A model generated the notes under the pieces. The model ran no database searches, was not told where the DNA came from, and saw only the letters and a program-made list of their open reading frames with translations. The position numbers and the translations under genes were made by a program. Of a DNA stretch of 64,000 nt, positions 43,713 through 58,483 are shown one piece after another (the first letter of the stretch is position 1; every line of letters begins with the position of its first letter). This stretch comes from Actinocorallia herbida (GTDB taxonomy: Bacteria; Actinomycetota; Actinomycetes; Streptosporangiales; Streptosporangiaceae): the NCBI RefSeq assembly GCF_003751225.1, contig NZ_RJKE01000001.1:2232001-2296000 (forward strand). Reading direction: 5' to 3'.

Positions 43713-45077
43713 ATGACGACGGATCCGGCGACGACCGACGACGCCTTCGCGCCCCTCCGCGCGCTGGCGGACGCGATCCTCTATGAGGGCTACCTCCTCT
43801 ACCCCTACCGGCGCTCCTCGGCCAAGAACCGGGTCCGCTGGCAGTTCGGCGTCCTCACGCCGCGCGCGTGGACCCAGGCGCGGGGGCCCGACGACACGGG
43901 GGTCGCGGGCTCCGCCGAAGGCTGGTGGCAGCGGACCGAGGCCCTGGTGCGGGCGCCTGCGGGCACGCCCGTCGAGGGCGCGGTCCGGTTCCTGCAGGTG
44001 CAGCGCAAGACCGTCGAGGAGCACCGGGCCGGGCGCTGGCACGCCGCCGAGTCCCTGACGGCCGCGGCACGGCACGAGGTCCCGTTCGACGAGGCGGTCC
44101 CGCACGAGATCCGCTTCCGGATCCCGCTCGGCGCGGCGCCGGACCTGGAGTTCACCGTGCCCGGAGGCCGGGACGTCGAGGAGATCGCCGATCCGGCCGG
44201 CCGCGTGGTCGGGCGGGTGGTCCGGGAACGGCTGGCCCTCGCCGTCCGGGTCGGGGTGGGCGGGGCGGCGCTGGGGGAGGGGCCGGACGGGCCGCTGCAC
44301 CGGCTGTCGGTGCGGGTGGCGAACGCCGCGGCGGACATCGCGCCGGAGGTTCCGCGCGACACCGCGCTGCGCTCGTCGCCGCTGGCCTGCCACCTGCTGC
44401 TCGCCGTCCGAGGCGGCGCGTTCGTCTCGCTGCTCGATCCGCCCGAGTGGGCCGAGGCCGCCGTGCGGGGCTGCGCGAACGTGCACACCTTCCCCGTCCT
44501 CGCCGACGCCGCCGACACGCTCGTGCTCTCGTCGCCGATCCTGCTCTACGACCACCCCAAGGTGGCCCCGGAGAGCCCCGGCGACCTCCACGACTCCGGG
44601 GAGATCGACGAGATCCTCACCCTGCGCACCCTCACCCTGACCGACGCGGAGAAGCGCGAGGCCCGCGCCACCGACCCGCGCGCCGCCGCGATCGTCGACC
44701 GGGCGGACGCGATGCCGCCCGAGGTGTTCGAGCGGCTGCACGGCGCGGTCCGCTCCCTCGGCGCCGCCGATCGGGGCGGTCCGCCGGACGCGTCGGTAGT
44801 GGTGGCGGGGGTGCGGCTGCGCGCGGGCAGCCGGGTGCGGCTCCGCCCGCGCAGGCACGGCACCGACCCGCAGGACCGCTTCCTGGACGGCCGCACGGCC
44901 CGTGTCGAGAAGGTGCTCGCCGACATGGACGACGCGACGCACCTCGCCGTCACCGTCGAGGACGATCCGGCGGCGGACCTGGACCGGTGGTACGGCCGCT
45001 TCCGCTACTTCGCGCCCGACGAGGTCGAGCCGCTGGAGCCCGCCGCGCCGCTGGAGACCTCGGGGGAGGGCCGGTGA
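43713..45077 (+). CDS. hydrogenase-cluster protein of unknown function (454 aa)
   Basis: A 454-aa soluble protein, the first gene of the hydrogenase operon. It has no TM, signal or CxxC motif. The opening LADAILYEGYLLYPYRRSS, the WWQRTEALV region and a C-terminal beta-rich GSRVRLRPRR...FLDGRTARVEKV part (~360-420, like a small SH3-type barrel with RYFAPDEVEPL after it) are the visible landmarks. It is joined to the maturation protease by a 4-bp overlap. I recall similar genes next to group 1h hydrogenases; a maturation or assembly role is inference. Confidence 0.7.
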   Translation: MTTDPATTDDAFAPLRALADAILYEGYLLYPYRRSSAKNRVRWQFGVLTPRAWTQARGPDDTGVAGSAEGWWQRTEALVRAPAGTPVEGAVRFLQVQRKTVEEHRAGRWHAAESLTAAARHEVPFDEAVPHEIRFRIPLGAAPDLEFTVPGGRDVEEIADPAGRVVGRVVRERLALAVRVGVGGAALGEGPDGPLHRLSVRVANAAADIAPEVPRDTALRSSPLACHLLLAVRGGAFVSLLDPPEWAEAAVRGCANVHTFPVLADAADTLVLSSPILLYDHPKVAPESPGDLHDSGEIDEILTLRTLTLTDAEKREARATDPRAAAIVDRADAMPPEVFERLHGAVRSLGAADRGGPPDASVVVAGVRLRAGSRVRLRPRRHGTDPQDRFLDGRTARVEKVLADMDDATHLAVTVEDDPAADLDRWYGRFRYFAPDEVEPLEPAAPLETSGEGR

Positions 45078-45598
45078 GCGCCCGGGGCGGCGTCCTGGTC
45101 GCGGGCATCGGGAACCTCTTCCTCGGCGACGACGGCTTCGGCGTCGAGGTGCTGCGGCGGCTCGACCCCGCCCGGCTCCCGGACGGGGTGCGCGCCGCCG
45201 ACTACGGCATCCGGGGCGTCCACCTCGCCTACGAACTGCTCGACGGGACCGTCGACACCCTCGTCATGGTCGACGCGGTCCCGCTGGACGGCCCGCCCGG
45301 CACGCTCGCGGTGCTGGAGGTGGGCCCGGACGACCTGGGCGACGACGACGGCGCCGCGGTGGACGCGCACGGCCTGCACCCGCTCGCGGTGCTGCTCCTG
45401 CTGCGCCGCCTCGGCGGATCGGTGGGCCGCGTGTTCGTCGTCGGCTGCCGCCCGGAGTCCCTGGAGGAGGGCATGGGCCTGTCCGCGACCGTCGAGGCCG
45501 CGGTGGACGGGGCGGTGCGCCTCGTCGAAGAGCTGGTCGAAGACCTCGCCCGTACCGGACGGGCGCGGACGGAGCGAGAGGAACCGGCCGATGCATGA
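45074..45598 (+). CDS. hydrogenase maturation protease (HyaD/HybD/HoxW family)
   Basis: A 174-aa endopeptidase that trims the large-subunit C-terminus after Ni insertion. GNLFLGDDGFGVEVL is the family start. The nickel-sensing triad is likely D20, D67 (VDAVP) and H99 or H102; Asp replaces the usual Glu at the first position. The substrate is probably HhyL (48 kb), expected to be cut after H576. GTG start in overlap with the 454-aa gene, 8-bp overlap with hypA. Confidence 0.92.
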   Translation: MSARGGVLVAGIGNLFLGDDGFGVEVLRRLDPARLPDGVRAADYGIRGVHLAYELLDGTVDTLVMVDAVPLDGPPGTLAVLEVGPDDLGDDDGAAVDAHGLHPLAVLLLLRRLGGSVGRVFVVGCRPESLEEGMGLSATVEAAVDGAVRLVEELVEDLARTGRARTEREEPADA

Positions 45599-45965
45599 AC
45601 TGGGGCTGTGCGACGCGATCGTGGCCGCCGCGCTCAAACGCGCGGGCGACCGGCGGGTACGGGCGGTGCGGGTGCGCGTCACCGGCCACCCGGTCGACCC
45701 GGCGGTGATCGAGCAGGGGTTCCGGCTCGCCGCGGAGGGCACCCTCGCCGCGGACGCCGAGGTGGACCTGGTGCAGGACCAGGCCGAGGTCCGCTGCCGC
45801 ACCTGCGGCGAGACCGGCAGGGCCGACGGCGCGCTCGGCCTCACCACCTGCATGACCTGCGGCGGCCTCGACGTGGAGGTCACCGGTGAGGAGGAGGCGT
45901 TCCTGGAGTCGATCACCGTCGACCAGACCGAGGGGCAGGGCGAACCCGCCGGAGCGGGCGGGTGA
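45591..45965 (+). CDS. hypA: hydrogenase nickel incorporation protein HypA
   Basis: A 124-aa Ni metallochaperone. MHE at the N-terminus gives the nickel site (His2). The zinc site is C69, C72, C87 and C90 (CRTC...CMTC). It delivers Ni to the large subunit, normally with the GTPase HypB, which is not in this window. It has an acidic C-terminal tail after residue 100. The small-subunit gene follows after 13 bp. Confidence 0.93.
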   Translation: MHELGLCDAIVAAALKRAGDRRVRAVRVRVTGHPVDPAVIEQGFRLAAEGTLAADAEVDLVQDQAEVRCRTCGETGRADGALGLTTCMTCGGLDVEVTGEEEAFLESITVDQTEGQGEPAGAGG

Positions 45966-45978
45966 GGGGAGGCGTGCG

Positions 45979-47028
45979 ATGACCACCACGACGACGGGCA
46001 AGGCAGTCGAAGAGGTGCACATTCTGTGGATCTCCGAGGGCATGAGCTGCGACGGCGACACCGTGTCGATCACCGCGGCGTCGCAGCCCGCGATCGAGGA
46101 CGTCGTCGGCGGCCTGATCCCGGGGCTACCGAAGGTGCACCTGCACAACAAGGTGCTGTCGCCGACGCTCGGCGGCGAGGAGTTCCTCGGACCCTTCCGG
46201 GCCGGGGCGACGGGCGAGCTGGACGCGCCGTTCGTGTTCGTGCTGGAGGGCTCGGTCCCCAACGAGAAGATCAACGGGGACGGGTACTGGACGTCGTTCG
46301 GCAACGACCTCCTCACCGGTGAGCCGCTCACCCTCGACCGCTGGATCGACGCGCTCGCGCCGCGCGCGTTCGCCGTCGTCGCCGTCGGGACATGCGCGAC
46401 ATTCGGCGGCATTCACGCGATGCAGGGCAATCCGACGGGCGCGATGGGCCTGTCCGACTACCTCGGGACGGACTTCCGCTCCGCGGGCGGGCTGCCGATC
46501 ATCAACATCCCGGGCTGCCCCGTCCAGCCGGACAACTTCATGGAGACGCTGACCTGGTTGCTCTTCCACGCCGCGGGCACGGCGCCGCCGCCTCCGCTGG
46601 ACGACCTGGGCCGGCCGACGTGGCTGTTCGGCAGCACCGTCCACGACGGGTGCGACCGGGCCGCCGGATACGAGCAGGCCGACTTCGCCCATGACTACAA
46701 CTCCTCCAAGTGCCTGGTGAAGGCCGGGTGCTGGGGGCCGGTCGTGAACTGCAACGTGCCCAAGCGCGGCTGGATGGGCGGGATCGGCGGCTGCCCGAAT
46801 GTCGGCGGCATCTGCATCGCGTGCACCATGCCGGGCTTCCCGGACAAGTTCATGCCCTTCATGGACATGCCTCCGGGCGCCACCCTGTCGTCGGCGCTGA
46901 TCAAGCCGTACGGGGCCTTCATCAAGCGCATGCGCGACATCACCAACCACACCGCGAACCGCGAGCCGAAGTGGCGGCACAACCGGGACAAGATCACCAC
47001 CGGATACCGCAAGGCCGAGCGGCGCTGA
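45979..47028 (+). CDS. hhyS: [NiFe] hydrogenase small subunit, group 1h
   Basis: A 349-aa Fe-S subunit. The proximal cluster motif reads SCDGDTVS: C24 is kept, but Asp27 replaces the second Cys. This Cys3-Asp ligation is the mark of the actinobacterial (group 1h/5) oxygen-tolerant hydrogenases, seen in the Ralstonia AH structure. The other proximal Cys residues are in VGTCATFGG and IPGCPVQPDN. The medial and distal clusters use the HDGCDR...KCLVKAGCWGPVVNC...CPNVGGICIACTMPGF region. No Tat signal is present, as usual for this group. It passes electrons from H2 to a cytosolic or membrane-side acceptor. Confidence 0.95.
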   Translation: MTTTTTGKAVEEVHILWISEGMSCDGDTVSITAASQPAIEDVVGGLIPGLPKVHLHNKVLSPTLGGEEFLGPFRAGATGELDAPFVFVLEGSVPNEKINGDGYWTSFGNDLLTGEPLTLDRWIDALAPRAFAVVAVGTCATFGGIHAMQGNPTGAMGLSDYLGTDFRSAGGLPIINIPGCPVQPDNFMETLTWLLFHAAGTAPPPPLDDLGRPTWLFGSTVHDGCDRAAGYEQADFAHDYNSSKCLVKAGCWGPVVNCNVPKRGWMGGIGGCPNVGGICIACTMPGFPDKFMPFMDMPPGATLSSALIKPYGAFIKRMRDITNHTANREPKWRHNRDKITTGYRKAERR

Positions 47029-47065
47029 ACCGCGCCGTCTTCCAGGCAGGAGAGGACCACCACCG

Positions 47066-48862
47066 ATGGCCATCACCGATCCGAGGACGGCCGGCAAGAC
47101 CAAGCCGGGCCAGCTCGTCGAGATGTCCTGGGACCCGATCACCCGCATCGTGGGCAACCTGGGCGTCTACACCAAGATCGACTTCGCGAACCGGCGGGTG
47201 GCCGAGTGCCACGCGACCTCGTCGATGTTCCGCGGCTACTCGGTCTTCATGAAGGGCAAGGACCCGCGCGACGCCGGGTTCATCACCAGCCGGATCTGCG
47301 GGATCTGCGGCGACAACCACACCACCTGCTCGGTGTACGCGCAGAACATGGCCTACGGGATCAAGAACCCGCCGCTCGCGGAGTGGATCCTCAACCTCGG
47401 CGAGGCCGCCGAGTACATGTTCGACCACACGATCTTCCAGGACAACCTGGTCTTCGTCGACTACTGCGAGGCGATGGTCAAGGACACCAACCCGGCCGTG
47501 CTGCGCCGGGCGAGAGAGACCCCCGCGCCGGGCGCCGACGTGCACGGATACCGCACCATCGGCGACATCATGGCCGCGTTCAACCCGTTCGAGGGCGAGG
47601 TCTACAAGGAGTCGCTGCGGATCAGCCGGGTCACCCGGGAGATGTTCTGCCTCATGGAAGGCAGGCACGTGCACCCGTCGACGGTCTATCCGGGCGGTGT
47701 CGGGACGGTGCCGAATCCGTCGGTGTTCACCGACTACCTGTCGCGGCTGATGCAGGTCGTCGACTTCTTCAAGAAGTCCGTCGCGATGAACGACGACGTC
47801 TTCGACTTCTTCTACGAGGCGCTGCCCGGCTACGAGGAGGTGGGCCGCCGGCGCGTCATGCTGGGCTGCTGGGGCTCCTTCCAGGACCCGGCCGTCGTCG
47901 ACTACCGCTACGAGTCGATGGAGGCCTGGGGCAGGGCCATGTACGTCACACCCGGGATCGTCGTGGACGGGCGGTTGCTCACGACCGACCTGGTCGACAT
48001 CAACCTCGGCATCCGCATCCTGCTCGGCAGTTCGTACTACGACGACTGGACGGCCTCGGAGAAGTTCGTCGACCGGGACCCGCTCGGCAATCCCGTCGAC
48101 ATGCGGCACCCGTGGAACCAGACGACGATGCCCGCGCCGCAGAAGCGCGACTTCGACGACAAGTACAGCTGGGTGATGAGCCCGCGCTGGTTCGACAAGG
48201 CCAGCGGGCAGCACCTCGCGCTCGACACCGGCGGCGGCGCCTTCGCCCGGCTGTACACCACGGCCCTGGCGAACCTGGTCGACACCCCGTACGTGAAGGC
48301 CACGGGCTCCAGCGTGCAGATCAACCTGCCGCGCGGCACCGAGCTGCCCGAGACGACGTTGGAGTGGCGCATCCCGCGCTGGTCCAACGCGCTGGAGCGG
48401 AACAGGGCGCGCGCCTACTTCGTCGCCTACTCCGCGGCGATGGCGCTGTACTTCGTCGAGGAGGCGATGAAGCTCGTCTCGGCCGGCGACACCAAGGTCT
48501 TCGAGCCGTTCGAGGTGCCCGACGAGGCCATCGGCTGCGGGTTCCACGAGGCCGTCCGCGGCGTCCTGTCGCACCACCTGGTGATCCGCGAGGGCAAGAT
48601 CGCCAACTACCACCCGTACCCGCCGACGCCCTGGAACGGCAGCCCGCGCGACAGCTACGGCACCCCCGGCCCGTACGAGGACGCCGTCCAGGACATGCCG
48701 ATCTTCGAGGAGAACGGCCAGGACGACTTCCGCGGCGTCGACATCATGCGCGCCGTCCGCAGCTTCGACCCGTGCCTGCCCTGCGGTGTCCACATGTACC
48801 TGGGCAAGGGCAAGACGCTCGAGAAGATGCACTCGCCGATGTTCGGGGCCTCCCATGGGTGA
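47066..48862 (+). CDS. hhyL: [NiFe] hydrogenase large subunit, group 1h
   Basis: A 598-aa catalytic subunit. The L1 motif is RICGICGDNHTTC (Ni ligands C78, C81) and the L2 motif DPCLPCGVH (C570, C573), which leaves a 22-residue C-terminal peptide after H576 for the protease to remove. The L1 form with CGDNH is typical of group 1h/5, the high-affinity enzymes that oxidise atmospheric H2 in actinomycetes during starvation or sporulation. The stop overlaps the NifU-like gene by 8 bp. Confidence 0.96.
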   Translation: MAITDPRTAGKTKPGQLVEMSWDPITRIVGNLGVYTKIDFANRRVAECHATSSMFRGYSVFMKGKDPRDAGFITSRICGICGDNHTTCSVYAQNMAYGIKNPPLAEWILNLGEAAEYMFDHTIFQDNLVFVDYCEAMVKDTNPAVLRRARETPAPGADVHGYRTIGDIMAAFNPFEGEVYKESLRISRVTREMFCLMEGRHVHPSTVYPGGVGTVPNPSVFTDYLSRLMQVVDFFKKSVAMNDDVFDFFYEALPGYEEVGRRRVMLGCWGSFQDPAVVDYRYESMEAWGRAMYVTPGIVVDGRLLTTDLVDINLGIRILLGSSYYDDWTASEKFVDRDPLGNPVDMRHPWNQTTMPAPQKRDFDDKYSWVMSPRWFDKASGQHLALDTGGGAFARLYTTALANLVDTPYVKATGSSVQINLPRGTELPETTLEWRIPRWSNALERNRARAYFVAYSAAMALYFVEEAMKLVSAGDTKVFEPFEVPDEAIGCGFHEAVRGVLSHHLVIREGKIANYHPYPPTPWNGSPRDSYGTPGPYEDAVQDMPIFEENGQDDFRGVDIMRAVRSFDPCLPCGVHMYLGKGKTLEKMHSPMFGASHG

Positions 48863-49490
48863 GCCCGCCGCGCGCGCCAGGCCCGTCGGCGCGTCCGCGC
48901 GGCGCCTGGAGGACGCGGAGGCCACCGACCGGGTCGAGCGCGCCGAGTCCGCCGGGCCTGCGGACGGGGTCGCGGAGCGCCTCGACGACGTGGAGGTCGC
49001 CGATCTCGTCGGGAGGGTCGAGGCCGAGCTCAGCGCGCTGGAGAGCATGCCGGGGGCGACCGCGGCCCGCGCGCTGGACGCGGTCGCGTTGCTCACCCGG
49101 GTTTACGGGGAGGCCCTGGCCCGGATCGTGGACCGGGTCGCGGGGGACCGGGCCGTCGCCGGGGAACTGGCCGCCGACGAGCTCGTCGGGCACCTGCTCG
49201 TCCTGCACGGGGTCCATCCCGAGCCGCTGCCGCAGCGGGTGGCGCGGGCGCTGGACCGGCTGCGGCCGCTGCTCGGGGGCGGCGAGGCCCGGCTGGAGGG
49301 CGTCGAGGGCGGGATCGCGCGGGTCAGGCTGAGCGGGACGCACGGCTGCGGGACCCGTCCGCTGGAGGACGCGGTGCGCGACGCGGTGCTCGCGACCGCG
49401 CCGGAACTCTCCCGGGTGGACCTGCGCTCGGGGGAGCCCGCGTTCGTGCCGGTGGAGGCGCTGCTGAGCCGTCCGAGCGCGGCGCCATGA
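48855..49490 (+). CDS. NifU-C-like hydrogenase accessory protein
   Basis: A 211-aa protein with a helical N-terminal half and a NifU C-terminal-like domain (~127-190): VARALDRLRPLLGGGEARLEG, ARVRLSGTHGCGTRP, and PELSRVDL. NifU scaffolds have CxxC here; this protein keeps only C165, so it cannot bind a cluster the usual way unless it dimerises through it. The overlaps with hhyL (8 bp) and the DUF5947 gene (4 bp) tie it to hydrogenase assembly, perhaps for the Asp-ligated cluster (inference). Confidence 0.8.
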   Translation: MGEPAARARPVGASARRLEDAEATDRVERAESAGPADGVAERLDDVEVADLVGRVEAELSALESMPGATAARALDAVALLTRVYGEALARIVDRVAGDRAVAGELAADELVGHLLVLHGVHPEPLPQRVARALDRLRPLLGGGEARLEGVEGGIARVRLSGTHGCGTRPLEDAVRDAVLATAPELSRVDLRSGEPAFVPVEALLSRPSAAP

Positions 49491-50065
49491 GGCAGGGCGC
49501 ACTCGAACGCCTGGTCCGCCGGGCCGCCGAGCCCGCGGCCGAGAGCTGCGGGCTGTGCGCGGTCCCGCTCGGCGAGCGGCACGACCATGTGCTCGACGAC
49601 CGGGACGAGAGCCTGCTGTGCGCGTGCCGCCCGTGCGTCCTGCTGTTCGGGGAGGGCACCGGGCACTTCCGGCCGGTGCCCGCGCGCCGGATCAGGCTGG
49701 ACGGAGTGCGGGCGGCCGACCTCGGGGTGCCCGTGGGACTCGCGTTCTTCACCGTCGCGGACGACGGGGCGGCCGTCGCGAGGTACCCCAGTCCGGCGGG
49801 GGCGGCGGGCTGGCCCGTCGACCCGGCGGCGTGGGCCTCGGCGGTCGCGGCCTGCCCGCCGCTCGGCGGGCTGCGGCCGTACACCGAGGCACTGCTGGTC
49901 AACACGCTGCACGACGCCGACGAGCGGTGGCTGGTGCCGGTCACCGACGGGCACCGCCTCGTCGCCGCCGTCCGGCTCGCGTGGAAGGGCCTGTCCGGGG
50001 GAGCCCGGGTGCGGCCGGAGATCGAGGCGTTCTTCGCACGCCTCGCGGAAGGGGGAGAACCGTGA
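49487..50065 (+). CDS. DUF5947 family hydrogenase-cluster protein
   Basis: A 192-aa protein with a putative zinc ribbon (CGLC at ~22-25 and CACRPC at ~45-50) followed by a mixed alpha/beta body ending in a helix (RPEIEAFFARLAEG). DUF5947 proteins accompany group 1h hydrogenases in actinobacteria; function unknown, perhaps assembly or electron-transfer partner. Coupled on both sides by 4-bp overlaps. Confidence 0.78.
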   Translation: MRQGALERLVRRAAEPAAESCGLCAVPLGERHDHVLDDRDESLLCACRPCVLLFGEGTGHFRPVPARRIRLDGVRAADLGVPVGLAFFTVADDGAAVARYPSPAGAAGWPVDPAAWASAVAACPPLGGLRPYTEALLVNTLHDADERWLVPVTDGHRLVAAVRLAWKGLSGGARVRPEIEAFFARLAEGGEP

Positions 50066-50172
50066 GAGGACCGTGGGTCTTCGTGCTCGGGCTGCTGGGG
50101 CTGCTCGGACTGTTCGTGTTCTGGAAAGAGCTGCCCGACCTCAAGCGCTATCTGCGGATGCGACGGATGTGA
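50062..50172 (+). CDS. 36-aa single-TM peptide (DUF6893-like)
   Basis: A very short gene with GTG start overlapping the DUF5947 stop (GTGA). Residues 4-20 are a hydrophobic helix (WVFVLGLLGLLGLFVF) and the tail is PDLKRYLRMRRM, strongly basic. This is the DUF6893 pattern of tiny actinobacterial membrane proteins. In this operon it could dock the soluble hydrogenase or its partner to the inner face of the membrane; that is a guess. Confidence 0.7.
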   Translation: MRGPWVFVLGLLGLLGLFVFWKELPDLKRYLRMRRM

Positions 50173-50227
50173 CCGTGCTCATCGGGCCCGGTACGCGGGC
50201 GCCACTACGAGAAAGGCGGAACAACGG

Positions 50228-50500
50228 ATGTGCCTGGGCATCCCCGGAGAGATCGTGGAAATGCTGCCGGACCGCGCCGACCTCGCCCTGGTCGAGGTGG
50301 CCGGGGTACGGCGGCCCATCAGCGTCGGCCTGCTCGGCCCGGACGGGGTCGGCCCCGGCGACTGGGTGCTGGTCCACGTCGGCTTCGCCATGTCGAAGAT
50401 CGACGAGGCCGAGGCGGCGGCCACGCTCCAGCTGCTGGAGGGCCTGGGCCAGGCCTACGCCGACGAGCTCGACGCGCTCGCCGCTTCGGACATCACATGA
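50228..50500 (+). CDS. hypC: hydrogenase assembly chaperone HypC
   Basis: A 90-aa HypC with the essential N-terminal MCLGIPGEIVE (C2) and the VGFAMSKIDEAEA tail helix. It carries the Fe(CN)2CO unit from HypD to the large subunit. Followed after 16 bp by hypD. A second HypC-like gene lies at 57646-57873. Confidence 0.94.
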   Translation: MCLGIPGEIVEMLPDRADLALVEVAGVRRPISVGLLGPDGVGPGDWVLVHVGFAMSKIDEAEAAATLQLLEGLGQAYADELDALAASDIT

Positions 50501-50516
50501 GGGGGGACCGGCCGGC

Positions 50517-51659
50517 ATGAGGTTCGTCGACGAATACCGCGACGCGGACAAGGCGCGGGCGCTTTCCGGGCAGATCGCCGCACTGTGCGAGCCGGGAAGG
50601 CACTACAAGTTCATGGAGGTGTGCGGCGGCCACACCCACACCATCTACAAGCACGGGCTGGAGGACCACCTGCCCGAGACCGTCGAACTGGTCCACGGAC
50701 CGGGCTGCCCGGTCTGCGTGATCCCGATGGGCCGGGTGGACGACGCGATCGCGATCGCGCGCGAGCCGGACGTCATCCTGACCTCGTTCGGCGACATGCT
50801 GCGCGTCCCTGGCGGCACCGGCTCGTTCCTCGAGGCCAAGGCCGAGGGCGCCGACATCCGGATGGTCTACTCGCCGCTGGACGCGCTCAAGATCGCCAGG
50901 GAGAACCCCGGCCGCCGGGTGGTGTTCATGGCGATCGGGTTCGAGACGACGGCGCCGTCGACGGCCGTCACGGTGCTGCGGGCCGCGTCGGAGGGCGTCT
51001 CGAACTTCTCGGTCTTCTGCAACCACGTCACGATCATTCCGGCGATCAAGGCGATCCTCGACTCGCCCGACCTGCGGCTCGACGGCTTCCTCGGGCCCGG
51101 CCATGTCTCGACCGTCATCGGGTGCAGGCCGTACGAGTTCATCCCGAGCGAATACGGCAAACCGCTGGTCTGCGCCGGATTCGAGCCGCTCGACCTGCTC
51201 CAGTCGGTCCACATGCTGCTGCGGCAGTTCGCCGAGGGCCGCTGCGAGGTCGAGAACCAGTACACCCGGGTCGTCCCGTGGGACGGCAACGCCCGCGCGC
51301 TCGAGGCGATCGCCCGGACGATGGAGCTGCGACCGCACTTCGAGTGGCGCGGCCTCGGGTTCATCTCCCACTCGGCGCTCGCGCTGCGCGAGGAGTTCGC
51401 CGCGCACGACGCGGAGAAGGTCTTCGACGTGCCGGGCGTGCGCGTCGCGGACCCGAAGGCGTGCCAGTGCGGAGAGGTACTGAAGGGCGTCATCAAGCCG
51501 TGGGAGTGCAAGGTGTTCGGCACCGCCTGCACTCCCGAGACCCCCATCGGGACCTGCATGGTCTCCTCCGAGGGGGCGTGCGCGGCCTACTACAACTACG
51601 GGCGGTTCAGCCGGGCCGCCCTGGCCGAGAGCACGATGCGGGAGGGGACGCGCGCATGA
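50517..51659 (+). CDS. hypD: hydrogenase formation protein HypD
   Basis: A 380-aa Fe-S protein on which the Fe(CN)2CO centre is built. Conserved CGGHTHTIYKHG (C36), GPGCPVCV (C64, C67) and the C-terminal cluster Cys residues (CQCGEVLKG, CKVFGTACTPETPIGTC) are all present. Overlaps hypE by 4 bp (ATGA). Confidence 0.95.
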   Translation: MRFVDEYRDADKARALSGQIAALCEPGRHYKFMEVCGGHTHTIYKHGLEDHLPETVELVHGPGCPVCVIPMGRVDDAIAIAREPDVILTSFGDMLRVPGGTGSFLEAKAEGADIRMVYSPLDALKIARENPGRRVVFMAIGFETTAPSTAVTVLRAASEGVSNFSVFCNHVTIIPAIKAILDSPDLRLDGFLGPGHVSTVIGCRPYEFIPSEYGKPLVCAGFEPLDLLQSVHMLLRQFAEGRCEVENQYTRVVPWDGNARALEAIARTMELRPHFEWRGLGFISHSALALREEFAAHDAEKVFDVPGVRVADPKACQCGEVLKGVIKPWECKVFGTACTPETPIGTCMVSSEGACAAYYNYGRFSRAALAESTMREGTRA

Positions 51660-52741
51660 CCACCGAACAGCAGGTGCTCGACCGGATAGAGCGCGCCAGG
51701 AAGCGGGCGCCCAAGGTCCGCGAAGAACGCGTCACCCTGGCGCACGGGGCGGGCGGGAAGGCGAGCCAGACCCTTATCGACGACGTGTTCGTGACGGCCT
51801 TCCGCAACCCGGCCCTGGACGCGCTCGGCGACGGAGCCGTGCTCGACCTCGGGCTCGGGACGGGTGTGCCGCGCCTGGTGATGACGACGGACTCCTACGT
51901 GGTGTCGCCCGTCTTCTTCCCCGGCGGGGACATCGGCGACCTGGCCGTCAACGGGACCGTCAACGACCTCGCGGTGTCCGGCGCGCGGCCCATGCACCTG
52001 TCGGCGGCCTTCATCCTGGAGGAGGGGTTCCCGATCGGGGATCTGCGGCGGATCGCCGCGTCCATGGCGGCCGCGGCCGCACGGGCCGGGGTCGCGATCG
52101 TCACCGGCGACACCAAGGTCGTCCAGCGGGGCAAGGGCGACGGCTGCTACATCACGACCGCCGGGGTGGGCCTCCTGGACCGTCCCGAGGCCCTCGGCGT
52201 CGCGGAGGTCCGCCCGGGCGACGCCGTGCTGGTGTCCGGCCCGATCGGCGACCACGGCGTCACCGTCATGCTCGCCCGCGGCGACCTCGACCTCGCCGCC
52301 GACCTGGAATCCGACACCGCGCCGCTGCACTCGATCGTCGCGGCCCTGCGCGACGCGGTGCCGGGCGCCGTCCGCATGATGCGCGACGCCACCCGGGGCG
52401 GGGTCGCCACGGTGCTCAACGAGATCGCCCGGGGCGCGGGGGCCGCCGTCATCCTCGACGAGGCGGCCGTGCCCGTCCGTCCGGCCGTCTCCGGGGCGTG
52501 CGAACTCCTCGGGATCGACCCGCTGTACGTGGCCTGCGAGGGCAGGTTCGTCGCGGTCGTGGCCGAGGACGGGGCGGCGGAGGCCCTGGCCGCGCTCCGC
52601 GCCCACCCGCAGGGCGCCGACGCCGCGGTGGTGGGCCGCGTGGCGGACGATCCGCCCGGTCTGGTCCTCCTCAAGACCGCTTTCGGCGGGACCAGAATCG
52701 TCGACGTCCTCGTCGGTGACCCGCTCCCGCGCATCTGTTGA
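51656..52741 (+). CDS. hypE: hydrogenase expression/formation protein HypE
   Basis: A 361-aa PurM/AIR-synthetase-fold enzyme that dehydrates the HypF-made thiocarboxamide to thiocyanate on its C-terminal Cys. The tail PRIC (C361) is intact, as are LAHGAGGKASQ, VNGTVNDLAVSGA and RDATRGGVATVLNE. Last gene of the plus-strand hyp operon before a 80-bp gap. Confidence 0.95.
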   Translation: MTTEQQVLDRIERARKRAPKVREERVTLAHGAGGKASQTLIDDVFVTAFRNPALDALGDGAVLDLGLGTGVPRLVMTTDSYVVSPVFFPGGDIGDLAVNGTVNDLAVSGARPMHLSAAFILEEGFPIGDLRRIAASMAAAAARAGVAIVTGDTKVVQRGKGDGCYITTAGVGLLDRPEALGVAEVRPGDAVLVSGPIGDHGVTVMLARGDLDLAADLESDTAPLHSIVAALRDAVPGAVRMMRDATRGGVATVLNEIARGAGAAVILDEAAVPVRPAVSGACELLGIDPLYVACEGRFVAVVAEDGAAEALAALRAHPQGADAAVVGRVADDPPGLVLLKTAFGGTRIVDVLVGDPLPRIC

Positions 52742-52821
52742 GGCGAATCACGAAAATCGAGGCGGTGCCGAGCGATACTTAGCCGATAGTCACTCATGGG
52801 GGTATTGCGTCGGGAGGCTTT

Positions 52822-54465
52822 GTGGGGGACGGCTCGCCCGGCCAGGGCGTCGAGCGGTCGAGCGCGGGCAGGGACATTCTCCAGTACTTCAGCCGCGCCC
52901 TCATCTCCATCCATGTCTGGCCCTCCCGTACCGTGCCGGATCCGGGTGGGGAACCCGGCCCGCCCGAGCCGGGGCGGCCTGGGCGGCCGCGGCGAGGCCG
53001 GAAGGTCGCGGCCGCTTTCGTCGCGGTCGCCCTGGTGACGGGCCTGGGCCTCTGGTTCGGCCTGCGGTCCGGCTGCGAGGGCGACCTGGAGCTCAACGCG
53101 GGCGAGTGCGTCGGCGTCAGCGACGGCGAGGCCCTGTTCGACCCGAAGAACGCGGGGCTCACCGCGGTGCAGCGGCTCTTCGCCGCGGAGAACCGCCTCG
53201 TCGACGCGGACCAGGACGACGGCGACGTCACCATCGCGTTCCTCGGCCCGCTCACCGGCGACGCGAACTCGCCCGCCAAGGGCCGCGCCGTGCACGAGAT
53301 CGCCGCCGCCTACATCGCCCAGGTGCGGGCGAACTCCGGGGAACTCGGCGAAAGCCGGAAGATCAAGGTGGTCCTGGCCAACGCGGGCAGCGACGAGTCG
53401 GGGTGGGAGCAGGCGGCCGAGGGCCTGAAGAAGATGGTCGGCGCCGACCGTCTCGTCGCGGTGGTCGGGCTCGGGCTGAGCCAGCGCGAGACGAAGAACG
53501 CGATCAACCGGCTCGCCGAGAAGGGCCTCCCCCTGATCGCCGACGTGGTGACCGCGAGCGGGTTCGACCGCGCGAACACCGACTCCGACCGGCTCCACCT
53601 GATGCCGCTGCCGGTGGACAGGCAGATGGAGATCGTGCACGCCTGGTTGAAGGACAAGCATCTGATGGCCGGCACCGCCGAGGTCGTCGAGACCGGCGTC
53701 ACCTCGACCGGGGCCGAGGACATGTACGCCACGTCGCTCAGCGCGGCCTTCGCCAAGGAGGGGTTCGTCCCCACCACGCCGACCGGAGGCGGTCGGCCGT
53801 ACCAGTACAAGCCGGGCGAGGACTTCAAGGGCATCGCGCAGAGCGTCTGCGCGGCAGGGCCCGACCTGCTGTACTTCGCCGGCCGCGGCGTCGACCTGGA
53901 GAAACTGCTGAACGCGCTCGGCGCCCAGACGACGTGCGCCCTCCCGTCCCTGACCGTGGTGACGGGCTCGGACGCCACCGCGCTCGACCCGACGGAGCCG
54001 TTCTTCTCCGACCCCCGCAGGCCCCTCTCCCTCGTGTACGTGCCGATCGCCGACCGCGACCGGCTCAACAGCTGGGACAACCAGGAGATCGCCCAGTACC
54101 ACGCCTTCGCCAACCGGTTCGTCGCCACCTTCAAGGGGCTGGGACTCGACGAGTCCGAACTCGCCGACGGGTGGGCGATCATGGCGCACGACGCGATGCT
54201 CGCCGCGGCGAAGGCCGCCATCGACGCGCACGGGAAGAACCCGACGGTCGACGCGGTCGCGGAGGCGCTGGACGCCCTCGGGTCGGGGCCCGCGGACGCG
54301 CGGGACCTCGTTCCGGGGGCCGCCGGGGACTTCGCGTTCGACGCCGAGGGCGGCCGGGTGGTCTATCTCCCCACGCGCAGCGGCGAAGGGACCCGGACGC
54401 CGAGTGCCGCGCCCGTCCAGATCGGCGTCCACTGCGCGGAGACGGGCCGCGCGGGCCGCTGCTGA
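52822..54465 (+). CDS. periplasmic-binding-fold (type 1) substrate-binding-like protein, membrane-anchored
   Basis: A 547-aa protein. The N-terminal ~60 residues are cytosolic and Pro/Gly/Arg-rich, a TM helix follows (~62-85), then two Cys (CEGDLELNAGECVGV) and a type 1 periplasmic-binding domain (~130-520) with VTIAFLGPLTGDANSPAKG and VVGLGLSQRETKNA. The fold matches branched-chain amino-acid receptors, but no permease or ATPase is adjacent. Similar ligand-binding proteins occur as sensors. It sits between hypE and the convergent hypF. Start GTG 52822. Ligand unknown. Confidence 0.75.
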   Translation: MGDGSPGQGVERSSAGRDILQYFSRALISIHVWPSRTVPDPGGEPGPPEPGRPGRPRRGRKVAAAFVAVALVTGLGLWFGLRSGCEGDLELNAGECVGVSDGEALFDPKNAGLTAVQRLFAAENRLVDADQDDGDVTIAFLGPLTGDANSPAKGRAVHEIAAAYIAQVRANSGELGESRKIKVVLANAGSDESGWEQAAEGLKKMVGADRLVAVVGLGLSQRETKNAINRLAEKGLPLIADVVTASGFDRANTDSDRLHLMPLPVDRQMEIVHAWLKDKHLMAGTAEVVETGVTSTGAEDMYATSLSAAFAKEGFVPTTPTGGGRPYQYKPGEDFKGIAQSVCAAGPDLLYFAGRGVDLEKLLNALGAQTTCALPSLTVVTGSDATALDPTEPFFSDPRRPLSLVYVPIADRDRLNSWDNQEIAQYHAFANRFVATFKGLGLDESELADGWAIMAHDAMLAAAKAAIDAHGKNPTVDAVAEALDALGSGPADARDLVPGAAGDFAFDAEGGRVVYLPTRSGEGTRTPSAAPVQIGVHCAETGRAGRC

Positions 54466-54500
54466 ACGGGCGGGTCCGGTCTCCGGTCTCCGGCCGGAGG

Positions 54501-56990
54501 TCAAAGCAGGTCATGGGAGGCGGCGACGTGCGCCTGGCCCAGGGAGAGACCGCCGTCGTTGGGCGGGACCCGGGAGTGCAGGAGGACGCGGAACCCGGCG
54601 GCTTCGAGGCCGGAGGTGACGCGGTCGAGGAGAAGGACGTTCTGGAAGACCCCGCCGGACAGGGCCGCGGTCGTGAGGCCCGTGCGGGTGCGCAGGACGC
54701 GGGCGGCGGCCACGACGGCCCGGGCGAGGGCGTTGTGGAAGCGGGCGGAGATCAGGGACGGGCCGGTGCCCTTGCGGACGTCGTCGGCGACGGCGCGGAT
54801 GAGGTCGGGGCAGGACAGGACGAGGGGATCGCCGTCGAGGACGGGCAGGGGATAGGCGCCGGACTCGGCGGGGTCCGCGGCGCGTTCCAGGGCGATCGCG
54901 GCCTCACCCTCGTAGCGCGCGGTGCCGCGGAGGCCCGCGAGGGCGGCGACGGCGTCGAAGAGGCGGCCCGCGCTGGACGTCAGCGGGGAGCCGAGGCCCG
55001 AGCGGGCCAGCGCGGTGACGGCGTCCCAGCGCCCGGCGTGGAGGTCGTGCAGGGGAAGGGCGGGGGCCCCGCCGTCGTAGGCGGCGGCGAGGTGGGCGGC
55101 GGCCATGCGCCAGGGCTCGCGGATCGCGGCGGCGCCGCCCGGCATCGGGACCGGCGTGAGGCAGGCGGCGCGGTGGTAGCGCGCCAGGTCGGCGATCAGG
55201 AGCTCGCCGCCCCACAGGGCGCCGTCGGGGCCGTAGCCGAGGCCGTCGAACGCGACGCCGATCACCGGGCCGTCCTCGCCGTTGTCGGCGAGGCACGCGG
55301 CGATGTGCGCGTGGTGGTGCTGGACCGCCACGAGGTCCAGGCCCTCGGCCTCGGCGAGGTCGACCGCGAACTTCGTCGACAGGTACTCCGGGTGCAGGTC
55401 GTGCGCGACGACCTCGGGTGCGATCCCGAACAGGCGGCGGTGGTGCGCGACGGTCTCGGTGTAGGCGCGCAGGGTCGCGTAGTCCTCCAGATCGCCGACG
55501 TGCGGGGACACGAACGCGCGCGAGCCCTTGGCCAGGCAGAAGGTGTTCTTCAATTCAGGGCCACAGGCCAGGACCGGGCGCGGGAACGGGCGGTGCGCGG
55601 CGAGCGGGGCCGGCGCGTGGCCGCGCGAGCGGCGCAGCGGCAGCTCACGGCCACGGAACAGGCGCACCACCGAGTCGTCGGCGCGGGCGTGCACCGGGCG
55701 GTCGTGGGTGAGGAAGGCGTCGGCGATCCCGGCGAGGCGCGCGGCCGCCTCCGCGTCGCGGTGCTCGATCGGCGCGCCGGCGAGGTTGCCGCTGGTCAGC
55801 ACGAACGGCGCGGCGAGCCGTCCGGCGAGCAGGTGGTGCAGCGGCGTGTAGGGGAGCAGCACGCCGAGGTCCGCGGCCCCGGGGGCCACCTCCTCGGCCG
55901 TCGCGGCGCCCGGGAGGCGGCGCAGGAGCACGATCGGGCGGCGCGGCCCGGTGAGCACGGCCTCGGCGGCGTCGTCGACCTCGACCAGCGCGCGGGCCGC
56001 GGCGAGGTCGCCGACCATGACAGCGAACGGCTTGGCTTCGCGGTGCTTGCGCTGCCGCAGACGGGCCACCGCGGCGGCGTCGGAGGCGAGGACCGCAAGG
56101 TGGAAGCCGCCGAGGCCCTTCACCGCGACGATCCCGCCCTCCCGCAGCAAGGAGACCGCCGAGTCCACGGGATCACCCGCGACCGGAGATCCGTCCGCCA
56201 GGACGAAGCGCAAGGAGGGTCCGCAAGCGGGGCAGCAGACGGGCTGGGCGTGGAACCGGCGGTCTGAGGGGTCAGCGTACTCCTTCGCGCAGGCCGCGCA
56301 CAGAGGGAAGTCCCGCATGGTGGTGTTCGGACGGTCGTAGGGGACGTCCGCGGTGATGGTGTAGCGCGGGCCGCAGTGCGTGCAGTTGGTGAAGGCGTAA
56401 CCGTGCCTGCGGTCTTCCGGGTCGTTCAGCTCGCGGAGGCAGTCCGCGCAGGTCGCGGTGTCGGGGGAGACGAGAGCCGACCGCGAGCCTCCGGCGATGC
56501 TCGCGACGATCTGGAAACCCCGCGCACCGACCGGCGCCGCGGGCTCGGCGGTGACCCGTTCCACGACGGCCAAGGGCGGGGCGCACAGATCGAGGTCGGA
56601 AACGAAGGCCGCCAAGCGCGCGGGCTCCCCCTCGGCCTCGGCGAACACCCCATCGCCATCGTTCCCCACGAACCCGTCGATCCCATGCCGTCCCGCCAGA
56701 TCGTGCACGAACGGCCGGAACCCCACCCCCTGCACGATCCCCTCGACCCGGACCCGGACCCGCACCCGACCCGCCTCGGGCGCGCGGTCCCGTTTCTCCG
56801 GCCGGTTCGCCTCAGGCGCGCGGTGTCCCACCCCCGGGTGGGTCGCCTTGGGCGTGCTGGTCGGCTCGTCCGGGTGGCCCGACTCGGTCGTGCGAACCCC
56901 CTCAGCCGAGTGGCCCGTGTCGGGCGGGTGGCCCGGCTCGGCCGGGCGGTCCGCCTCGGCCGGGCGGTCCGCCTCGGGCGGGCGGGTCAT
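54501..56990 (-). CDS. hypF: carbamoyltransferase HypF
   Basis: An 829-aa HypF. The acylphosphatase domain begins near 76 (GIVQGVGFRPF), two zinc-finger Cys pairs follow (CADC, CTHC, CAAC, CPAC, ~180-260), then a YrdC-like domain and the Kae1-like part with HHHAHIAACLAD (~560). It makes the carbamoyl-AMP used for CN ligands. The first ~73 residues are an extra Pro/Glu/His-rich tail with tandem EADRPA repeats. The ATG overlaps the SIS gene stop, which supports it, but a GTG at 56765 would give a normal-length HypF. Confidence 0.94.
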   Translation of the reverse strand: MTRPPEADRPAEADRPAEPGHPPDTGHSAEGVRTTESGHPDEPTSTPKATHPGVGHRAPEANRPEKRDRAPEAGRVRVRVRVEGIVQGVGFRPFVHDLAGRHGIDGFVGNDGDGVFAEAEGEPARLAAFVSDLDLCAPPLAVVERVTAEPAAPVGARGFQIVASIAGGSRSALVSPDTATCADCLRELNDPEDRRHGYAFTNCTHCGPRYTITADVPYDRPNTTMRDFPLCAACAKEYADPSDRRFHAQPVCCPACGPSLRFVLADGSPVAGDPVDSAVSLLREGGIVAVKGLGGFHLAVLASDAAAVARLRQRKHREAKPFAVMVGDLAAARALVEVDDAAEAVLTGPRRPIVLLRRLPGAATAEEVAPGAADLGVLLPYTPLHHLLAGRLAAPFVLTSGNLAGAPIEHRDAEAAARLAGIADAFLTHDRPVHARADDSVVRLFRGRELPLRRSRGHAPAPLAAHRPFPRPVLACGPELKNTFCLAKGSRAFVSPHVGDLEDYATLRAYTETVAHHRRLFGIAPEVVAHDLHPEYLSTKFAVDLAEAEGLDLVAVQHHHAHIAACLADNGEDGPVIGVAFDGLGYGPDGALWGGELLIADLARYHRAACLTPVPMPGGAAAIREPWRMAAAHLAAAYDGGAPALPLHDLHAGRWDAVTALARSGLGSPLTSSAGRLFDAVAALAGLRGTARYEGEAAIALERAADPAESGAYPLPVLDGDPLVLSCPDLIRAVADDVRKGTGPSLISARFHNALARAVVAAARVLRTRTGLTTAALSGGVFQNVLLLDRVTSGLEAAGFRVLLHSRVPPNDGGLSLGQAHVAASHDLL
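56941..56976. repeat. 18-bp tandem repeat, two copies, in the hypF 5' end
   Basis: GCCGGGCGGTCCGCCTCG occurs twice head to tail and a third partial copy follows. It encodes repeated EADRPA in the HypF N-terminal tail and looks like slippage in a low-complexity region. Confidence 0.8.
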
Positions 56991-57649
56991 CTCGGATCGG
57001 CGCAGGGCAGCGCGGCGGCCGTCAGCTCGCCGAGGACGTGGTAGAGGGTCGTCTGCGCCTCCTGGATGCGGTGGACCGACTCCGAGGGGATGACGAACAG
57101 GTGCCGGACCGCCCCCGGCGCGGCCATCGGCCCGCCGTCGTAGCCCGCGAACCCGACGGTCACCAGGCCGCGCCGTCCCGCCTCGTCGAGGCCGCGGAGC
57201 ACGTTCGGTGATCCGCCGCTCGTGGAGAACGCCACCGCGACGTCGCCCGGCCTGCCCAGCGCGGCGACCTGCCGGGAGAACACCACCTCGTAGCCGACGT
57301 CGTTGGCCAGCGCGGTGAGCGCCGCGGTGTCCTGCGCGAGGGCCAAGGAGGGCAGCGGACGCCCCGGCGAAGGCGGCGCCGCGAGCAGGGCCGCGAAGGC
57401 CCGAGCGTCGGTGGCGCTCCCCCCGTTCCCGAAAGCCAAGAGCCTGCCTCCCGCCGCGAAGGACGCGGCGAGATCCCGCGCGCAGGCGGCCAGCGCCCCC
57501 GCGAACCTGTCCGCGAGCGCCTCCCGCAGCGCCGCGGCCTCGGCCGCCTTGCGCTCCGTGGACGCCTCCACATCGGCGACCGGCCCCGCCGCCCCGCCCT
57601 CCGCGCCCGCGTACAGGAACGGGTAGAGCGCCTCGACGCCCCCGCTCAC
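56987..57649 (-). CDS. SIS-domain protein (GmhA-like), hydrogenase-linked
   Basis: A 220-aa SIS protein like D-sedoheptulose-7-phosphate isomerase. FGNGGSATDA (73-82) is the phosphate loop, FSTSGGSPNVLRGLDEA (~141-157) the second SIS loop, and HRIQEAQTTLYHVLGEL the C-terminal helix with the expected Gln/His. It should bind a sugar phosphate. It lies between a HypC-like gene and hypF with 4-bp overlaps on both sides, so it is made together with them. The link to hydrogenase maturation is strong by context; the reaction is unknown. Confidence 0.85.
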   Translation of the reverse strand: MSGGVEALYPFLYAGAEGGAAGPVADVEASTERKAAEAAALREALADRFAGALAACARDLAASFAAGGRLLAFGNGGSATDARAFAALLAAPPSPGRPLPSLALAQDTAALTALANDVGYEVVFSRQVAALGRPGDVAVAFSTSGGSPNVLRGLDEAGRRGLVTVGFAGYDGGPMAAPGAVRHLFVIPSESVHRIQEAQTTLYHVLGELTAAALPCADPR

Positions 57650-57873
57650 GCGCCGGCCTCCACGATGGCGATGGCCTCCTTGGCGTGCACGAGGACGAGG
57701 TCGCCGGGGCGGGCGTCGACCAGGGCGACGCTCACCTCTTCCGGGCCCGCTTCGGTGTCGACCATGGCGAGGCCGCCGGGGAGCAGTTCGCGCACGCGTA
57801 CGGCGACGGCGCTGTCGGAGCAGGTGATGCACACCTCGCCCAGGCAGAGCGGGACGGCGTCTTCACCGGTCAT
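57646..57873 (-). CDS. second HypC/HupF-family protein, non-canonical N-terminus
   Basis: A 75-aa HypC-like protein. The core PLCLGEVCITCSDSAVAVRV and VSVALVDARPGDLVLVHAKEAIAIV fit the family. The catalytic Cys is not residue 2 after Met: it is C10, with C15 and C18 added to form CLGEVCITC. This is unlike hypC at 50228. Overlaps the SIS genes on both sides (4 bp and 11 bp). It may bind a different metal-ligand intermediate or another client. Confidence 0.85.
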   Translation of the reverse strand: MTGEDAVPLCLGEVCITCSDSAVAVRVRELLPGGLAMVDTEAGPEEVSVALVDARPGDLVLVHAKEAIAIVEAGA

Positions 57874-58483
57874 GGGATCCCCCGAGGTCTTGGGCGGAAG
57901 GCGCCCCGGTGAGGGCGCCTTCCGCGAGAAAGACGTGAACCAGCTCCCACAGCACGTGGTAGGTGGTGACTTGGATCTCCCGCACGATGAGCGGGTCGGC
58001 GGACTCCACGGCGAGCACATGGTCGGCGGCCTCCCTCGCGGCCGTGCCGTCACCGCCGACGAGCGCGACCGTGAGCGCGCCGGCCTCCCTGGCCGCGGCG
58101 AGGCAGCGGAGCACGGCAGGGTCGTCCCCGTCGGCGGCGAGGCCCAGCGCGATGTCGGCGGGCCCGGCAAGGGGCCGCAGCCGCGCTGCGAGCGCGTCGT
58201 GCGGGCCGGTGCCCGTGCCGCCGTCGCAGGCGGCGCCCGCGCCCAGCGCGATCGCGGGCAGCGCGCGCTTGCCGACGATCACCGGATGGGTGAACTCGAC
58301 CGCGACGTGCGCGGCGTCCGCCGCCGCGAGCCCCGTCCCGAACGAGAACAGCAGCCCTCCGCGCCGGAATCTCTCGGCCATCGCCCGGCACGCCGCCCCG
58401 AGCCGCGCCGCCTCCCGCCCGAGCGCCTCCCCGGGCCCCGCCCGCCGCCCGAGCAACTGCCGCGCAAGCCCCTCAGCCCTCAT
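57863..58483 (-). CDS. SIS-domain protein with degenerate phosphate loop
   Basis: A 206-aa paralogue of the SIS protein at 56987. The two share the C-terminal helix (REIQVTTYHVLWELVHVFL here). The phosphate loop FGNGGS is changed to FGTGLAAADAAH (~48-60), and the second loop (LAADGDDPAVLRCLAAA) lacks the Ser cluster. It probably does not isomerise and may form a heteromer with the intact SIS protein. First gene of the minus-strand operon SIS-hypC2-SIS-hypF. Start ATG 58483. Confidence 0.8.
   Translation of the reverse strand: MRAEGLARQLLGRRAGPGEALGREAARLGAACRAMAERFRRGGLLFSFGTGLAAADAAHVAVEFTHPVIVGKRALPAIALGAGAACDGGTGTGPHDALAARLRPLAGPADIALGLAADGDDPAVLRCLAAAREAGALTVALVGGDGTAAREAADHVLAVESADPLIVREIQVTTYHVLWELVHVFLAEGALTGAPSAQDLGGSHDR

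Follow-up and report, generated by a model that had tools for sequence, protein, structure and literature searches.

We report a pair of SIS proteins, SIS1 and SIS2, encoded together with a non-canonical HypC (HypC2) and the carbamoyltransferase HypF in a 64,000-nucleotide stretch of the Actinocorallia herbida genome (contig NZ_RJKE01000001.1, positions 2,232,001 to 2,296,000; hereafter the window), and propose that they are probably the two halves of a single [NiFe]-hydrogenase maturation factor. Gene order, co-occurrence, association with one HypD lineage, complementary conservation of active-site residues and gene fusions constitute the evidence from sequence, from which we infer a heteromer, a composite site and a step of action; the probability that we attach to the proposal covers the observed and the inferred parts alike, but not the guess made below about the substrate. 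Many aerobic H2-oxidizing bacteria have, among their hydrogenase maturation genes, a relative of a sugar-phosphate isomerase; in A. herbida it is split into two proteins, each with one half of the active site. Such a factor could throw light on the way in which the iron-ligand group is formed in air.

The preliminary description of this DNA presented the gene set as its best candidate for an undescribed system. The association itself is visible in published annotation: MSMEG_2706, a "phosphoheptose isomerase", figures in the hydrogenase gene list of M. smegmatis (PMC5445863), a neighbourhood survey from 2025 tabulates a "SIS domain" gene cluster 37 with 68 genes (PMC12727194), and the SIS gene is apparent in the annotation of Cupriavidus necator pHG1. 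What stands of the claim is that we found no functional account, our full-text literature searches, with many subscription papers outside them, having returned table-level mentions only. The SIS family is strictly conserved, enzyme-like, located between hypC and hypD and tied to one HypD lineage, and its site is predicted to be split, making it a testable candidate for a missing step.

Gene organization

The four genes lie on the minus strand in the order SIS1-HypC2-SIS2-HypF, constituting a tightly overlapping operon that adjoins a group 1h [NiFe]-hydrogenase cluster:

57863..58483, minus strand: SIS1, 206 amino acids, degenerate GmhA-like SIS protein, Pfam SIS_2
57646..57873, minus strand: HypC2, 75 amino acids, non-canonical HypC carrying LCLGEVCITCSD
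56987..57649, minus strand: SIS2, 220 amino acids, GTG start, GmhA-like SIS protein, Pfam SIS_2
54501..56990, minus strand: HypF carbamoyltransferase, 829 amino acids, full-length by Pfam and NCBIfam

The overlaps noted in the preliminary description were confirmed at 11 bp (SIS1/HypC2), 4 bp (GTGA, HypC2/SIS2) and 4 bp (ATGA, SIS2/HypF), and, as it had stated, SIS2 has an intact GNGGS loop (FGNGGS) and SIS1 a degenerate one (FGTGLA). The two SIS proteins score 40.5 and 62.9 bits against Pfam SIS_2 (cut-off 27), and HypF attains 757 bits in NCBIfam. Chance open reading frames, or a lone oddity of this genome, are ruled out by the recurrence of the same gene string across the family and in distant relatives.

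Association with hydrogenase maturation genes

A SIS2 orthologue (E < 1e-45) was identified in 32 of 61 genomes from the window's family; 31 of these 32 encode the hydrogenase large subunit HhyL, a protein found in none of the remaining 29 (Fisher p 1.4e-16, kinship uncorrected). In the exception (G024) the cassette still adjoins hypC, hypD, hypE and hypF. SIS1 and SIS2 were located beside hyp genes in 19 of the 20 stretches fetched from this family, and HypD is encoded by 33 of the 35 SIS2-positive genomes in a sample of 246 Actinomycetota. The twentieth stretch (L037, 8884-10024; G012:C2:4257000-4276999) carries a further SIS1-SIS2 pair that has diverged strongly and has no hyp genes around it; the pair lies downstream of, and on the same strand as, open reading frames that by eye resemble nitrate reductase subunits.

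Widespread occurrence of SIS genes without hydrogenase genes, which the preliminary description had named as evidence against a role in maturation, was not what we observed. Scanning genomes with degenerate peptide patterns, and with no regard to neighbouring genes, returned 529 relatives, and in all of the best 80, which were kept for analysis, the gene following the single-copy SIS on the same strand is hypD, placing these proteins within [NiFe] maturation; hypC precedes SIS, again on the same strand, in all 79 of these loci with upstream sequence. The 80 loci span Pseudomonadota, Myxococcota, Nitrospirota, Planctomycetota and Acidobacteriota, and their large subunits, assigned by best match to a reference set in which some 2a scores are low, comprise 20 of 1h type and 34 of 2a type. 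On pHG1 the genes that follow those for the 1h subunits run hypF-hypC-SIS-hypD-hypE-hypA-hypB, and plasmids of Bradyrhizobium and Novosphingobium keep this order with a different hydrogenase. The pHG1 cluster shares with the window the structural hydrogenase, DUF5947, NifU, a protein of the 454-amino-acid type and a SIS gene adjoining hypD; unlike the window, it has a single SIS with a complete site and no HypC2 with the cysteine motif described below. The paired form recurs in M. intracellulare and on Thermus plasmids. The comparative data give good support for a place of the SIS factor in maturation, and we regard it as a genuine and conserved accessory to a defined [NiFe] maturation lineage.

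That lineage was delimited with two HypD trees, a quick one of 83 rows and a careful one of 55 rows under a mixture model. The HypDs of SIS loci, of 1h and 2a clusters alike, form one clade (Shimodaira-Hasegawa approximate likelihood ratio support of 98 in the quick tree; 97/95 in the careful one), so that SIS tracks the HypC-D-E module and not the hydrogenase; on the quick tree the SIS label takes 5 changes, versus 27.9 when shuffled. In the Streptomyces-like family f3, and in parts of family f78 and of genus g63, the structural (HhySL) clusters have HypDs from another clade (100/100) and come with HypX or with neither HypX nor SIS, never with SIS; the HypDs of some HhySL clusters in f4 fall in this clade too, again without SIS. 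Nine rows without SIS sit within the SIS clade, most of them with a HypC2-like match; one (L132) belongs to a genome that has SIS on a different contig. The same HhySL genes are seen with two HypC/D/E lineages (window 43713-52741; L123, L125, L127, L128, L143-L150), even inside genus g63 (L129, L141 versus L128, L149, L150), suggesting module swaps.

Predicted division of the active site between SIS1 and SIS2

In the SIS tree all hydrogenase-linked proteins are separated from GmhA as one clade on a long stem (support 100), which divides into subclades of single-copy SIS (100), SIS1 (99) and SIS2 (93). Conservation of active-site residues, in B. pseudomallei GmhA numbering, was counted over 85 single-copy proteins (including two GmhA-like controls without hyp neighbours), 30 SIS1 and 30 SIS2:

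H64: single 84/85, SIS1 29/30, SIS2 0/30
E68: single 84/85, SIS1 30/30, SIS2 0/30
H183: single 84/85, SIS1 30/30, SIS2 21/30
Q175: single 85/85, SIS1 3/30, SIS2 30/30
T124: single 85/85, SIS1 3/30, SIS2 30/30
S58: single 85/85, SIS1 2/30, SIS2 29/30

Over T124, S125, S128, N97, D98 and S58 as a set, almost none are kept in SIS1, 28-30/30 are kept in SIS2 and 84-85/85 in the single-copy proteins. The zinc ligands of GmhA are H64, E68, Q175 and H183 (PMC5705639); single homologues have all four, and here they are divided between SIS1 and SIS2, with no one polypeptide holding the set. SIS1 of the window keeps the metal-ligand half, in the segment DAxHxAVEFxHPVIVGKRALPA (H59, E63) and at H176, but has lost the phosphate loops and has R168 in place of the Gln ligand; SIS2 keeps GNGGS, N116-D117, STSGGS and Q196, and lacks the His and Glu metal ligands (A84, L88). 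The topology and residue pattern indicate that SIS1 and SIS2 arose by duplication followed by complementary degeneration.

In N. gonorrhoeae GmhA one monomer contributes H61, E65 and H183 to zinc binding and the adjacent monomer contributes Q175 (PMC5387315), and a published model likewise has Glu66 and Gln173 on different monomers (PMC7705670). Because the division of residues between SIS1 and SIS2 follows this inter-subunit boundary, the two are likely to form an obligate heteromer whose complete sites, each of them composite, would number half those of GmhA. SIS1-SIS2 is a single open reading frame in Thermus (392 amino acids) and on the Sulfobacillus acidophilus plasmid CP003180 (L186:11250-12450, unannotated, with the frame broken near the 3' end), and these fusions, together with the complementary losses, make probable the heteromer that the preliminary description had suggested. 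The Sulfobacillus frame sits between hypE and a glutaredoxin gene; a glutaredoxin-like gene is present there on the Thermus plasmid too.

Single-chain AlphaFold 2 models of both proteins have the fold of GmhA (SIS1: Z 24.6, root-mean-square deviation 2.5, 176 residues aligned; SIS2: Z 28.1, 1.5, 187 aligned). Hydrogenase SIS proteins thus resemble GmhA (B. pseudomallei 2x3y, N. gonorrhoeae 5i01) in fold, in the full active-site set of the single-copy form and in a composite site drawn from neighbouring subunits, and differ from it in clade, in hyp context, in the site being divided over two paralogues here and in scores below the equivalog cut-off of TIGR00441 (209.45 bits; SIS2 121.2, SIS1 67.8, C. 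necator single SIS 148.1). The fold and the automatic annotation of MSMEG_2706 would suit an ordinary heptose-phosphate isomerase serving cell-envelope sugars and present in the cluster by chance, an explanation rendered highly improbable by the separate clade, the low scores, the invariant hyp context and the lack of a full active site in SIS1 as in SIS2. No heptose-biosynthesis context was found in the window, in the family loci or in the best 80 relatives, all of which have hyp or hydrogenase surroundings.

The preliminary description also offered a gate on carbon status, by which the SIS pair would sense a sugar phosphate and permit maturation only under carbon limitation. The phosphosugar-sensing SIS domains of MurR, NanR and the RpiR type do appear among the structural matches listed, and H2 oxidation in M. 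smegmatis is reported to respond to carbon supply (PMC13098282). We nonetheless judge such a gate improbable, given that the nearest relatives are GmhA enzymes and not regulator-type SIS proteins, that the single-copy form has all catalytic residues and that SIS follows the HypD lineage.

HypC2 and its link to SIS1

HypC2, in the window and in relatives, lacks the N-terminal Met-Cys (MCLxIPG) and bears a motif, C-x(n)-C-[VIL]-T-C-[SAG]-D, in front of the HypC core, a point absent from the preliminary description. Like the HypC, HybG and HupF chaperones, it has the HypC core, including the LVHAxxAI segment; the missing Met-Cys and the upstream cysteine motif set it apart from them. It exceeds the Pfam HupF_HypC cut-off (32.2 bits; 28.5), falls short of NCBIfam TIGR00074 (19.1 versus 48 bits) and yields no significant match in a PDB sequence search. 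HypC2 with the cysteine motif is present in nearly all paired SIS loci (exceptions L034, L037 and L041) and in none of the best 80 single-SIS loci, and it is fused to SIS1 in M. intracellulare, G012, G038 and the second cluster of G039. Of the sampled f78 clusters that have lost SIS, three (L153, L157, L158) retain the motif, and in one more (L147) nothing beyond a weak HypC2-like match was seen.

The SIS1-HypC2 fusions would also suit a non-catalytic adaptor, a SIS scaffold with vestigial ligand binding that holds HypC2, HypC1-HypD or HypF. The precedent is DiaA of E. coli, which as a tetramer of GmhA type organizes DnaA and is a close structural match to both models (Z 23.2 for SIS1, 27.4 for SIS2), and the absence of phosphate loops from SIS1 points the same way. 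DiaA parallels the SIS proteins as a GmhA-like protein recruited to a non-metabolic partner, here the Hyp machinery. It has, however, Ser at the position of the catalytic Glu (PMC7705670), which is conserved here, and the full GmhA site, kept in 84-85 of 85 single SIS proteins and divided without loss between SIS1 and SIS2, would be needless for a pure scaffold, so that we regard this alternative as rather unlikely.

What SIS1 keeps is exactly the metal-ligand half, and it is SIS1, not SIS2, that occurs in fusions with the Cys-rich HypC2. A role in metal handling would have the composite His-Glu-His-Gln site carry Fe(II) or Zn and load HypC2, through its Cys-x(n)-Cys-x-Thr-Cys motif, and then HypCD, with a bound sugar phosphate controlling release. 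The known relatives are, however, zinc isomerases, the phosphate and substrate loops are kept as strictly as the metal ligands, the best 80 single-SIS loci have no HypC2 of this type, and Isc has been proposed as the iron source in E. coli (PMC10847431); we consider this role unlikely.

HypX and the CO ligand

The source of the CO ligand is open for anaerobes, and HypX is the sole established aerobic source (PMC12134894), yet most SIS-bearing 1h or 2a genomes examined lack it (36 of 40, with HypX in the other 4). The absence of hypX from the window, already reported, extends to the whole genome, a single contig of 9.8 Mb in which C. necator HypX has no match at E <= 1e-30. HypX was found in 3 of the 61 family genomes, one of the three with HhyL. 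A class sample of 54 HhyL genomes, from which a distant HhyL match in G561 was excluded, comprises 13 genomes with SIS only, 14 with HypX only, 1 with both and 26 with neither; mutual exclusion reaches a Fisher p of 0.08, with nearly all HypX carriers from one family. A full re-search of 18 of the genomes with neither yielded no SIS2 orthologue: the best matches were either GmhA-like proteins, with E >= 1e-23, or a fragment of 37 residues, and the absence of SIS there therefore looks real; in general, a limited number of scored candidates stands behind the negatives in large samples.

SIS is not a general requirement, since 26 of the 54 HhyL genomes have neither gene, and a strict requirement for 1h maturation is rejected, many HhyL genomes lacking SIS. 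We do not claim that SIS replaces HypX: the two seldom occur together and both are often absent, and a p of 0.08 with 26 of 54 genomes having neither leaves replacement by mutual exclusion unproven. The two are alike as ancillary maturation proteins of aerobic hydrogenases, HypX occurring in SIS-less HhySL clusters of Streptomyces-like genomes; they are unrelated in sequence and chemistry (HypX converts formyl-tetrahydrofolate to CO). The supply of a ligand, put forward in the preliminary description, may apply in the many SIS genomes where HypX is lacking. In its specific form, in which the SIS factor would be a HypX-independent source of CO, or of a one-carbon precursor, for aerobic maturation, made from a sugar phosphate at the composite metal site and passed to HypCD with HypC2 as carrier, we hold it to be rather unlikely.

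Proposed role in maturation

We propose that the gene of an ancestral GmhA-like homomer, which Proteobacteria and other phyla still keep in single copy between hypC and hypD, was duplicated, and that the copies degenerated in complementary fashion. SIS1 would contribute the His, Glu and His metal ligands, and SIS2 the phosphate-binding loops together with the Gln ligand, with a complete site formed only in the SIS1:SIS2 heteromer. The heteromer would serve one particular lineage of HypC, HypD and HypE and act while Fe(CN)2CO is being assembled on the HypCD scaffold, or earlier; HypC2, physically linked to SIS1, would be its Cys-rich partner. As a tentative guess, its substrate may be a phosphorylated sugar-like metabolite whose turnover feeds a CO or one-carbon ligand in organisms without HypX. 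The SIS and HypC2 set also suggests partner proteins for making these hydrogenases in other hosts.

Several observations weigh against this proposal. We know of no GmhA reaction that yields CO or any [NiFe] ligand. A few genomes carry both SIS and HypX, many HhySL clusters use the other Hyp module with neither, and four sampled f78 clusters retain a SIS-type HypD without SIS; SIS is dispensable in evolution. Exclusivity of the SIS-type HypD clade has been tested in part, the HypDs without SIS in the trees being mainly from Actinomycetota. The putative heteromer derives from residue patterns and fusions and not from a model of the complex, and the alignment behind the single-chain models consisted of single-SIS relatives only.

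Surrounding genes

The adjoining cluster comprises the following genes:

43713-45077, plus strand: conserved 454-amino-acid protein
45074-45598, plus strand: maturation protease
45591-45965, plus strand: HypA
45979..47028, plus strand: HhyS, small subunit
47066..48862, plus strand: HhyL, large subunit, with 1h motifs TSRICGICGDNH and SFDPCLPCGVH
48855-49490, plus strand: NifU-like
49487-50065, plus strand: DUF5947
50228..50500, plus strand: HypC1, canonical HypC, MCLGIPG
50517..51659, plus strand: HypD, of the SIS-associated lineage in the HypD tree
51656..52741, plus strand: HypE, C-terminal PRIC

HhyL has both the L1 and the L2 motif, in that order above, given for group 1h (PMC10080006). 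HypB was not found in the cluster (43713-58483), though HypA is there; the genome outside the cluster was not searched for it. The plus-strand gene at 52822-54465, between hypE and the convergent hypF, encodes a protein with the look of a periplasmic substrate-binding protein. The N-terminus of HypF (56760-56990, minus strand) consists of about 75 residues of degenerate proline- and acid-rich repeats (PEADRPAEADRPAEPGH...) ahead of the acylphosphatase domain.

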